Shown here piece after piece: positions 16,933 to 20,512 of a stretch of 64,000 nucleotides of DNA; positions within the stretch are counted from its first letter, which is position 1; each line of letters starts with the position of its first letter. Position numbers and translations under genes: made by a program. The stretch lies in contig PNMC01000001.1 of assembly GCA_013823365.1 (NCBI GenBank), positions 1 through 64,000 on the forward strand, given 5' to 3'. The notes under the pieces are model-generated. The model was given only the letters and a program-made list of their open reading frames with translations. It had not been told where the DNA came from and did not search any database. The DNA is from Parvibaculum sp. Lineage in GTDB: Bacteria; Pseudomonadota; Alphaproteobacteria; Parvibaculales; Parvibaculaceae.

Positions 16933-17526
16933 GTGAACAGCGCAAAGCCCCTCAGGATCCTCATCATCGACAGCAACGACGACCGCGCCGCCGTGGTCGA
17001 GGCGGGGCTTGCCGGCTACGGCGATGCGCAGATTCTCCGCATGGGCCTCTCGACCGATCTCATCCGCAAGATCGGGGAAATCGAGCCCGATGTGATCTTC
17101 GTGGATGTGGATTCGCCCGACCGCGACACGCTGGAGAACATGCGCAATGTCTCTGCCGTCATGCCGCGTCCCATCGTGATGTTCGTCGAAGAAAGCGAGG
17201 AATCTCTTGCGGAAGAGGCGCTGCGCGCGGGCGTCAGCGCCTATATCGTCGACGGGCTCAGTGCAAAGCGCGTGAAGCCGATCCTCGACGTCGCAATCCT
17301 GCGTTTCAAGGTCTTCCAGAAGATGCGAGAGGAGCTCGACAAGGCGAAGTCGGATCTCGCCAGCCGCAAGGTTGTGGAGCGCGCCAAGGGCCTGCTGATG
17401 GAGCAGCGTAAACTCTCCGAGGAAGAGGCCTACAAGCTGCTGCGCAACACCGCCATGAAAGAGGGCAAGTCGATTCTCGACATCGCCGACAGCCTCATTT
17501 CGATCTCCCGTTTGCTCAAGGGCTAG
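16933..17526 (+). CDS. nasT: ANTAR-domain response regulator NasT
   Basis: 197 aa from the GTG at 16933. An N-terminal receiver-like domain (LRILIIDSNDDRAAVVEAGL, then PDVIFVDVDSPDRDTLENM) is followed by a C-terminal ANTAR RNA-binding domain (SRKVVERAKGLLMEQRKLSEEEAYKLLRNTAMKEG). NasT binds hairpins in the leader of nitrate assimilation transcripts and prevents termination when nitrate or nitrite is present. The receptor NasS that normally restrains it is not beside it in this window. The operon it should control starts 300 bp downstream, behind a matching leader. Confidence 0.92.
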   Translation: MNSAKPLRILIIDSNDDRAAVVEAGLAGYGDAQILRMGLSTDLIRKIGEIEPDVIFVDVDSPDRDTLENMRNVSAVMPRPIVMFVEESEESLAEEALRAGVSAYIVDGLSAKRVKPILDVAILRFKVFQKMREELDKAKSDLASRKVVERAKGLLMEQRKLSEEEAYKLLRNTAMKEGKSILDIADSLISISRLLKG

Positions 17527-17664
17527 GCAAAGCCTGTTCGCTTCTTGGTCATCCGGTTGAAATTTTGTGCAATGCAAACAAAATTTATCCTTTAAAATCA
17601 ATTCACTATTGCGCGCTCCCTCCAATTGAATAATCCTCAGTGTCAGGCAGGCGCGCGGGATGAA
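17527..17664 (+). other. Promoter region of the nitrate operon, no gene
   Basis: This AT-rich stretch between nasT and the leader RNA holds no open frame with family features. TTTGTGCAATGC at 17564-17575 is followed by AAACAAAATTTATCC and a run TTTAAAATCAATTCACTATT that could contain a -10 element. No sigma-54 GG-N10-GC pair was found. The same 12-mer recurs before the AraC-acetamidase gene at 34478-34489. Transcription of the nitrate leader probably starts in this interval. Confidence 0.5.
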
Positions 17665-17785
17665 CCGCGAGCCGCCACCGCACCGGGCCAATGGCGGCCC
17701 ATCGCGGACATACCGGGTCAATGACGGCCCGCCTCGGACAATGGCGTCTGTTTCGACGAGCGATCGTCGGCAGGCGCCTTTTTTT
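17665..17785 (+). ncRNA. NasT-responsive antitermination leader with three ANTAR-type hairpins
   Basis: Three hairpins have hexanucleotide loops starting with A and with G at position 4: GGGCC-AATGGC-GGCCC (17685-17700), CGGGTC-AATGAC-GGCCCG (17714-17731) and CGGAC-AATGGC-GTCTG (17735-17750). These are the sequence rules for ANTAR targets. The third hairpin uses the same bases (17743-17750) as the left arm of the terminator, so the two are mutually exclusive. CCGCGA (17665) and TCGCGG (17702) could close an outer stem around the first hairpin. Confidence 0.82.
17743..17785 (+). terminator. Leader terminator (attenuator) before the nitrate operon
   Basis: GGCGTCTG (17743-17750) pairs with CAGGCGCC (17771-17778, one G-T pair). 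Inside it CGACGA pairs with TCGTCG around GCGA, and seven T residues follow (17779-17785). It lies 43 bp before the first structural gene. Its left arm overlaps the third ANTAR hairpin, so NasT binding would prevent its formation. Confidence 0.87.
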
Positions 17786-17828: not shown

Positions 17829-19058
17829 ATGAACTCGAAGAGAATGAGATATCTGATCCCGTGCGCCTTGCTGGCGCTTGCCTTTCTGCCGGGCACGGCC
17901 CTCGCCGAAGAAGATTTCGGCGAGGCGCTGCTCGGGGGCAAGCCGATCGTCGATCTGCGCCTGCGCTATGAGCGTGTCGAACAGGACGGTTTTGCGAATA
18001 ACGCCCATGCCTGGACAGGCCGCGCCCGCCTCGGCTACGAGACGGGAAGCTTCCACGGCTTCTCCGCGCTCGCCGACTTCGACTTCATCGGCCATGTCGG
18101 CCCCGAAGACTACAACGACACGATCAATGGCCGCACGGCCTATCCCGTTGTGCCGGACCCCGACGCCGCAGAACTCAACCGGCTCCAGATTTCCTACGCG
18201 GGTCTCCCGGGCACCACCGTCACGCTCGGCCGCCAACGCATCGTGCTTGGCAATGCGCGCTTCGTCGGCAATGTCGGCTGGCGGCAGAATGAACAGACAT
18301 TCGATGCCCTGCGTGTCGTCAATAACAGCATCGAAGGTCTTACGCTCGGCTACGCCTATGTGAACCGCGTGAACCGCGTCTTCAGCGATCGCAGCCCCGC
18401 AGGCCGGTTCCGGGGCGACAATCATCTGATCAATGCGGATTACACCGGGCTCGCGAACCTGACCATCGGCGCATATGCCTATCTGCTCGACCTCAATGAA
18501 GCACAGGCTCTTTCCACGGCGACCTATGGCCTGCGCATCGCCGCGCCCTTCGACCTCGCGGACAAGGCAAAGCTGACACTGACAGGCGAATACGCCCGTC
18601 AATCGGACCGCGCCGGCAATCCGCTTTCGTTCGACCTCGACTATTACCTCGCCGAAGCCTCCCTCGCGCTCGCGCCTTTCGGCTTCACGGCAGGCTACGA
18701 AGTGCTCGAAGGCGACGGCACTGCCGGCTTCTCCACGCCGCTGGCGACGCTTCATGCTTTCAACGGCTGGGCCGACACCTTCCTCACAACGCCGGTGAAC
18801 GGCCTTGAGGATATTTATCTCGGCGCGTCCTGGACCGTGGGCGGCATCCCGGCCATCGAAAAGCTCGTGCTCGGCGTCACCTGGCACGACTTCTCCGCGG
18901 AGCGTGGGGGCGCGGATTTCGGCAGCGAGCTCGATCTCGTGGCGAACTTCGTCGTCACGAAGAACATCTCCGTCAATCTCAAATATGCGAGCTACGACGG
19001 CGATGGCGGCTTCGCCAGCCGCGACAAGGCCTGGGTCTCGCTCACCTACACCTACTGA
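17829..19058 (+). CDS. Alginate-export-type outer membrane porin of the nitrate operon
   Basis: 409 aa with a signal peptide (MRYLIPCALLALAFLPGTALA) and a barrel of the alginate_exp family: KPIVDLRLRYERVEQDGF, TVTLGRQRIVLGNARFVGNVGW, QTFDALRVVN and the closing aromatic strand KAWVSLTYTY. As the first gene after the NasT leader it probably carries nitrate or nitrite across the outer membrane. Family members in other nitrate clusters occupy the same place. ATG 17829 is 43 bp after the terminator T-run. Confidence 0.82.
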   Translation: MNSKRMRYLIPCALLALAFLPGTALAEEDFGEALLGGKPIVDLRLRYERVEQDGFANNAHAWTGRARLGYETGSFHGFSALADFDFIGHVGPEDYNDTINGRTAYPVVPDPDAAELNRLQISYAGLPGTTVTLGRQRIVLGNARFVGNVGWRQNEQTFDALRVVNNSIEGLTLGYAYVNRVNRVFSDRSPAGRFRGDNHLINADYTGLANLTIGAYAYLLDLNEAQALSTATYGLRIAAPFDLADKAKLTLTGEYARQSDRAGNPLSFDLDYYLAEASLALAPFGFTAGYEVLEGDGTAGFSTPLATLHAFNGWADTFLTTPVNGLEDIYLGASWTVGGIPAIEKLVLGVTWHDFSAERGGADFGSELDLVANFVVTKNISVNLKYASYDGDGGFASRDKAWVSLTYTY

Positions 19059-19093: not shown

Positions 19094-20512
19094 ATGACGA
19101 AGGACAAGACGCCACTGGACGGAAAAGCGGTCGACCGCCGCAGCGTCCTCAAGACGGGCGGGAAACTGCTCGGCGCCGCCGCCCTGTTCAAGGCCGCCGG
19201 CGCGGTCGTACCCGGCGGCGCTTGGGCCGCGGGCGGTGAGGGGCTGGAGAAGACCGATCTCACCCTCGGCATCATTCCGCTCACCGATTGTGCGCCGCTC
19301 GTCGTCGCGCATGAAAAAGGCTACTTCGCGAAGCATGGCATCAAGAGCCAGATTTCCAAGGAAGCATCCTGGGCGAATATCCGCGACAAGGTGTCGATCG
19401 GCGCGCTCGATGCAGCCCATATGCTCGCCGGCATGCCGATTGCCGCCTCGCTCGGCATCGGTGCCATCAGAAAACCTACCATCACGTCCTATTCGATGGA
19501 CCTGAATGGCAATGCGATCACGGTCTCGAACGAGCTTTACGACCGCATGATCGAGGCCGATCCCGAGGCGATGGCAGAGCGTCCGATTTCGGCCCGCGCA
19601 CTGAAAAAGGTGATCGACGCCGGCAAGGCCGTGGGCGAGGCGCCCATGACCTTCGCTGTCGTGTTCCCTGTCTCGACCCACAATTACGAGCTGCGCTACT
19701 GGATGGCCGATGCCGGCATCGACCCGGACAACGACATCCGCCTCATCGTCATTCCGCCGCCCCAGATGGTCGCCAATCTTCAGGCGAAGAACATCGTCGG
19801 CTATTGCGTCGGCGAGCCCTGGAACGAGCGTGCTGTCATCGCCGGTATCGGCAAGGTGCTGATCACGAACTACGAAATCTGGAACAACAACCCGGAGAAA
19901 GTGGTCGGCGTCAATCTCGACTGGGCCGAGAAAAATCCGAACACCCATATGGCGATGATCCGCGCATTGGTCGAGGCGGCGCAATGGATGGACAAGCCGG
20001 AGAACCGCCTTGAGGTCGTCGAGATCATCTCGCAGAGATCCTATGTGAATGCGCCGGTCGACGTCGTGAAAATGTCGATGACTGGCACCTTCCGCTATTC
20101 GATGGACGAAGAGCCGCGCCCTCTCCCCGATTTCAATGTCTTCTATCGCTACGGCGCCACCTTCCCCTGGAAGAGTCATGCCGCCTGGTTCATCTCGCAG
20201 ATGATCTGTTGGGGACAGATCGACAAGCCGGTCGACGTACTGAAAACGGCAGGCGAGGTCTACCGCCCGGACATCTACCGCGACGCCGTGAAGGGCATGG
20301 GCATTCCCGTTCCCTCGGTCGACTGGAAGACGGAGGGCACAAACGACGGTCCCTGGATGCTGACAGACGCCACCGCGCCGCTGGAAATGGGCCCCGATCG
20401 CTTCTTCAACGGCGATGTCTTCGACCCGGCTGAAGTTCTTTCCTACATCGACGGTTTCAAGGTGAAGAACCTTGCCCTGTCGATGGAAGAACTTTCCAAG
20501 CTCAACACATGA
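19094..20512 (+). CDS. nrtA: Nitrate ABC transporter substrate-binding protein NrtA
   Basis: 472 aa. The N-terminus has a Tat signal (DRRSVLKTGGKLLGAAALFK, then a hydrophobic segment ending AWAAGG), so it is exported folded. The mature part begins LTLGIIPLTDCAPLVVAHEKGYFAKHGI, the NrtA/CmpA/NasS signature. It binds nitrate in the periplasm and delivers it to NrtB. NasS is a cytoplasmic homologue lacking a signal; the Tat signal here argues for NrtA. The stop overlaps the nrtB start (ATGA). Confidence 0.92.
   Translation: MTKDKTPLDGKAVDRRSVLKTGGKLLGAAALFKAAGAVVPGGAWAAGGEGLEKTDLTLGIIPLTDCAPLVVAHEKGYFAKHGIKSQISKEASWANIRDKVSIGALDAAHMLAGMPIAASLGIGAIRKPTITSYSMDLNGNAITVSNELYDRMIEADPEAMAERPISARALKKVIDAGKAVGEAPMTFAVVFPVSTHNYELRYWMADAGIDPDNDIRLIVIPPPQMVANLQAKNIVGYCVGEPWNERAVIAGIGKVLITNYEIWNNNPEKVVGVNLDWAEKNPNTHMAMIRALVEAAQWMDKPENRLEVVEIISQRSYVNAPVDVVKMSMTGTFRYSMDEEPRPLPDFNVFYRYGATFPWKSHAAWFISQMICWGQIDKPVDVLKTAGEVYRPDIYRDAVKGMGIPVPSVDWKTEGTNDGPWMLTDATAPLEMGPDRFFNGDVFDPAEVLSYIDGFKVKNLALSMEELSKLNT

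Follow-up and report, generated by a model that had tools for sequence, protein, structure and literature searches.

The described RNA targets of ANTAR regulators are pairs of hairpins (PMC3369931; PMC7496416), as the sequence-only reading of this DNA had stated. In Enterococcus faecalis, the EutV targets are short stems with hexaloops that carry A1 and G4, and the second hairpin (P2) is mutually exclusive with an intrinsic terminator, so that the ANTAR protein holds P2 and thereby blocks the terminator. The linker between the two hairpins is 5–12 nt, and shortening it to 3 nt drastically lowered induction (Ramesh 2012, PMC3369931). In the Klebsiella oxytoca nasF leader, the regulator is NasR, a one-component NIT-ANTAR protein. 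SELEX with NasR picks a C:G-closed A1/G4 hexaloop, and NasR binds a pair of hairpins about 10 times better than one (PMC7496416). In Paracoccus denitrificans, NasT binds the nasA leader, NasS is the sensor, and expression strictly requires the upstream hairpin HI; HI and HII alone were analysed there (PMC3795266; PMC5424462). The 2022 structural study of EutV showed that each dimer contacts one hexaloop and proposed that P1 recruits a dimer that moves to P2. The need for two hairpins, given that a single one accommodates a dimer, has yet to be explained (PMC8934654).

The leader analysed here belongs to Parvibaculum and lies in a window of 64 kb, which denotes the whole stretch of DNA that was analysed. 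A segment of about 145 nt separates nasT from a porin-nrtABC-nirBD-nasA operon and contains, from 5´ to 3´, the hairpins H0, H1, H2 and H3 and an intrinsic terminator. The features are as follows.

16933..17526, + strand: nasT, response-regulator receiver-like domain plus ANTAR domain, probable GTG start codon
17609..17636, + strand: putative sigma-70 promoter TTGCGC-16 nt-TAATCC, placed by eye in an alignment of eight Parvibaculum leaders
17647..17675, + strand: H0, 5´ hairpin, hexaloop GATGAA here; a hairpin recurs at the same place in the relatives folded
17678..17707, + strand: H1, distal ("far") ANTAR hairpin, loop AATGGC at 17690-17695
17714..17731, + strand: H2, middle ("near", the canonical P1 position) ANTAR hairpin, CGGGTC-AATGAC-GGCCCG, loop at 17720-17725
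17735..17750, + strand: H3, P2-type ANTAR hairpin, CGGAC-AATGGC-GTCTG, loop at 17740-17745, one G:U pair
17743..17785, + strand: intrinsic terminator, 8-bp lower and 6-bp upper stem, GNRA apex GCGA, followed by T7
17829..19058, + strand: first controlled gene, outer-membrane porin-like protein (Pfam Alginate_exp)
19094..20512, + strand: nrtA, nitrate-binding protein with a twin-arginine-like leader

The regulator had been placed directly upstream of the leader, and this assignment was correct. The nasT product matches the Pfam families ANTAR (E 2.5e-19) and Response_reg (E 6.9e-07, slightly under the cut-off), the domain composition of NasT, and is 96% identical to the NasT of a Parvibaculaceae assembly. 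It was the sole ANTAR protein found in the source assembly, which is 89% complete. Transcription would start near 17643, judging from the putative promoter. Downstream of nrtA, the genes nrtB, nrtC, nirBD and nasA (names assigned by reading) extend to about 27701. An imperfect palindrome, TTTTGTGCAATGCAAACAAAA (17563-17583), is conserved in the Parvibaculum leaders about 70 nt 5´ of the putative transcription start; Ferrovibrio leaders have a similar sequence 5´ of their sigma-54-like promoters, and the palindrome is possibly a nitrogen-regulator site. Three other members of the genus (L128 in G003, L129 in G016 and L130 in G007) encode a different NasT, 41–43% identical, and the L128 leader has two hairpins with AATGAT loops.

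The three tandem hairpins with loops AATGGC, AATGAC and AATGGC are present as originally read, beginning at 17690, 17720 and 17740. H1 is formed by an upper stem, GGGCC-AATGGC-GGCCC (17685-17700; arms 17685-17689 and 17696-17700), and, beyond a 3x3 internal loop, by a lower stem CCGC/GCGG (17678-17681/17704-17707). All three loops have six nucleotides with A1 and G4, and each is closed by a C:G pair. With a strict hairpin defined as C-AANGNN-G on a stem of at least 4 bp, the 64 kb contain 18 on the + strand and 13 on the - strand, and the triple in the leader is the only one within 60 nt, whichever strand of the window is considered. ANTAR antiterminator RNA has so far been described with two hairpins, and three are present here; since the functional core of P1, P2 and terminator is complete, the leader is classed as a variant of it. 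An Rfam search gave no match for the leader and one tRNA only for the loci of eight relatives. Two further elements were considered and set aside. H0 is not counted as an ANTAR hairpin, its loop varying among relatives (GATGAA, CATGAG, ATCGAT and others). The terminator apex (cgacg-AGCGAT-cgtcg, loop at 17759-17764) also fits A1 and G4, yet it is a GCGA tetraloop of the GNRA type closed by A-U, which accounts for the apex without NasT; the apex (17753-17770) reads AGCGAT in seven of the eight Parvibaculum leaders and AGTGAT in L035.

The lower stem of the terminator pairs GGCGTCTG (17743-17750) with CAGGCGCC (17771-17778), and T7 follows at 17779-17785. H3 and the terminator share 17743-17750 and are therefore mutually exclusive. 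The third hairpin had been described as built from the 5´ arm of the terminator. The overlap is real, but it does not extend to the 5´ arm of H3: GGCGTCTG takes from H3 only the 3´ half of the loop (GGC) and the 3´ arm (GTCTG). Likewise, the proposal that NasT binding would exclude termination agrees with the exclusion between H3 and the terminator, although the principle is already known as P2 of ANTAR attenuators. The terminator-overlapping hairpin is thus this known P2, and the real departure is the additional hairpin upstream. The computed energies are -22.2 kcal/mol for the terminator and -4.9 kcal/mol for H3, which suggests that termination would be the default and that H3 needs help. 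H1 and H2 are compatible with either state.

Compared with the EutV targets of E. faecalis (PMC3369931), the leader shares the short stems, the A1/G4 hexaloops, a hairpin exclusive with the terminator, a genome-encoded ANTAR regulator and a nitrogen-metabolism operon. It differs in having three recognition hairpins rather than two, and in an H2-H3 linker of 3 nt as opposed to 5–12 nt, which is under the EutV optimum; the loop spacings of 20 and 30 nt fall inside the range of 18–30 nt of near-type NasT leaders (see below). It resembles the K. oxytoca nasF leader (PMC7496416) in the C:G-closed A1/G4 hexaloops and the nitrate assimilation operon; the latter has two hairpins and is controlled by NasR, not NasT. 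A further likeness is to the P. denitrificans nasA leader (PMC5424462; PMC3795266), a NasT-bound nitrate-operon leader with an upstream hairpin. Unlike P. denitrificans, where NasS is the sensor, the genome of the window (G000) and seven Parvibaculum genomes with this NasT (L225-L231) yielded no separate cytoplasmic NasS. Each of these eight genomes has one strong PF13379 (NrtA/NasS-family) protein, which is the operon's NrtA, compared with two to four in the control genomes G204, G331, G393 and G240. A diverged NasS-like sensor in Parvibaculum is possible.

All three hairpins, and not one pair only, are kept in the eight Parvibaculum leaders, whose mean column identity is 80%. The closing C:G pair, A1, A2, G4 and C6 are retained in every core of every leader, and only positions 3 and 5 vary. 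Of the 24 core columns 19 are invariant, against 77 invariant columns among the 150 of the leader; the hypergeometric P of 0.002 is approximate, as it ignores relatedness. The stem of H1 changes in a compensatory manner, from GGGCC/GGCCC to GGGaTC/GACCC; one pair is UA in three leaders and CG in three, and two-sided changes occur at two pairs (GC to CG and CG to UA). In the two deepest leaders (L038 and L039), a G:G mismatch adjoins the closing pair, which makes H1 weaker there. Loop spacing is 29–31 nt between H1 and H2 and 19–20 nt between H2 and H3; both spacings fall in the near-type range or at its limit. The H1-H2 linker GCGGACATA (17704-17712) is unchanged in seven of the eight leaders, with one change in L032, and its lower-stem partner is not conserved; the linker repeats the 5´ arm of H3, and pairing with the 3´ arm of H3 is possible.

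NasT loci were gathered from relatives, the class and the phylum, and their DNA was scanned for a strict hairpin overlapping a terminator with at least one strict hairpin upstream, which gave 58 leaders. The upstream hairpins are bimodal relative to P2, either near (-18 to -30) or far (-40 to -83). Nineteen leaders have near only, 23 far only and 16 both, counts that are not frequencies, as the home-made hairpin finder misses leaders with diverged loops or without a detected terminator. Near-only leaders include those of Ferrovibrio (L041-L043) and of a family of another class (f194), among others. The 16 leaders with both come from nine families, several of them proteobacterial: that of Parvibaculum and eight others, including f66 (L095, -56/-23; L101, -57/-23), f43 (L103, -66/-26), f128 (L114, -69/-23), f39, f22 and f174, and two families outside the class (L218, -63/-23; L221, -62/-23). 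A far hairpin thus accompanies the near one in 16 of 35 near-type leaders, compared with 0.29 expected and at most 2 in dinucleotide shuffles of the upstream DNA; the background rate of strict hairpins in real DNA is 2.7e-4 per nt. The genes downstream of the leaders checked are nitrate/nitrite genes of the NrtA, NirB-like or MFS transporter types. On a NasT tree of 57 rows, including two added by hand (L034, a near-duplicate, and L038, missed by the scan with a terminator score of 14 against a cut of 15), the label "both" takes 9 changes, at least 7 of them forced by well-supported branches. The near-plus-far layout has therefore been gained or lost several times. At the level of sequence, three-hairpin leaders are a recurrent variant of the ANTAR antiterminator and not peculiar to this genome. 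In 385 genomes, coding repeats overwhelmed the matches of a bare DNA pattern of three cores. In three Ferrovibrio-type leaders (L044, L045 and L077), P1 and P2 are 67–81 nt apart with a long structured insert between them, a distance far above the linker length tolerated by EutV.

NasT leaders accordingly look as if they were organised in three places. P2 is an ANTAR hairpin, and of the two places upstream, one or both hold another. The Parvibaculum leaders fill all three places, and the sister genus (L124 and L125) has the far hairpin and P2 with no near hairpin seen, so that either H1 or H2 may have been added. These far-only leaders bear on the roles of the two upstream hairpins. H1 and H3 could be the working pair, with H2 a spacer that keeps an ANTAR loop by chance. 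This arrangement would suit the 23 far-only leaders and the sister genus, and several far-only leaders do carry a plain hairpin at the near place (L046/L047, GGGC-GAAA-GCCC; L212, GCCCG-GAAA-CGGGC; L187; L219), while others have no clear middle hairpin. It is nonetheless unlikely, in that H2 retains every recognition letter in 8/8 Parvibaculum leaders, many other leaders consist of near hairpin and P2 only, and the H2-H3 loop distance fits known pairs. Still less probable is that H1 lacks a function of its own and is what remains after the P1-linker-P2 start was duplicated in tandem. Between the units 17683-17712 and 17713-17742, about 23–24 of 30 places match, the H1-H2 linker repeats the CGGAC of the H3 5´ arm, and in L036 the hairpins are 15/16 identical and 29 nt apart; however, H1 is found genus-wide, its stem varies in a compensatory way and its recognition letters do not vary, and the far hairpins of unrelated leaders have stems that are not copies of the near hairpin. 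That the loops are kept as AUG starts of leader peptides, or arose by chance from GC-rich inverted repeats, is very improbable: AATGGC does contain ATG, and the mechanical ORF list starts the porin frame at 17691 in the H1 loop, but relatives carry AACGGC, AAGGGC or AACGAC in the same places, losing ATG while retaining A1 and G4, on which ground the start-codon reading was rejected, and 16 near-plus-far leaders were seen against 0.3 in shuffles.

We favour, with moderate confidence, a reading in which H3 acts as the switch with H2 as its canonical partner, and H1 is predicted to offer NasT a further docking site. The leader would attenuate transcription under the control of NasT. Its default state would be the folded strong terminator, which would leave the nitrate operon unread. 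Active NasT would keep H3 as a hairpin; the bases that H3 and the terminator have in common would then be unavailable for termination, and transcription would continue. H2, 20 nt before H3, would serve as P1, the first NasT loading site. H1, 30 nt further upstream and transcribed first, would be an additional docking site: by capturing a NasT dimer early, it would make it more likely that NasT sits on H2, and next on H3, while the polymerase has yet to clear the T tract. An extra recruitment site is suggested by the model in which P1 recruits the dimer (PMC8934654). The sequences show that the hairpins exist, are conserved and recur, and that H3 and the terminator exclude each other; protein binding and antitermination are expected by analogy with EutV, NasR and Paracoccus NasT, and the recruitment role of H1 is a conjecture, antitermination being much the safer claim. 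Three points speak against the favoured reading: the 3-nt H2-H3 linker, given that EutV induction suffers at 3 nt (PMC3369931); the weaker H1 in the two deepest leaders; and the missing near hairpin in the sister genus, which would fit an addition of H2 instead of H1.

What is new is that there is a third recognition hairpin, that it is conserved, and that NasT leaders as a class show a near/far layout. No description of three-hairpin ANTAR leaders was found in a literature search, most subscription papers lying outside it. The earlier reading had suggested either two alternative binding pairs or more than one dimer on the leader; both may apply, but the second would not be new by itself, as one dimer per hexaloop has already been proposed (PMC8934654). 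More tentatively, NasT leaders may follow a three-place grammar (far, middle, P2), with an array of NasT dimers loading hairpin by hairpin on the nascent RNA; three-site leaders would then be cooperative or more sensitive switches, in Parvibaculum with a NasS-less NasT. For NasT, the textbook pair of hairpins seems an oversimplification. Far-only leaders could escape ANTAR regulon searches in which adjacent pairs only are modelled, and naturally occurring leaders that carry a single additional site at a defined spacing are ready substrates for the study of recruitment, hand-over and cooperativity.
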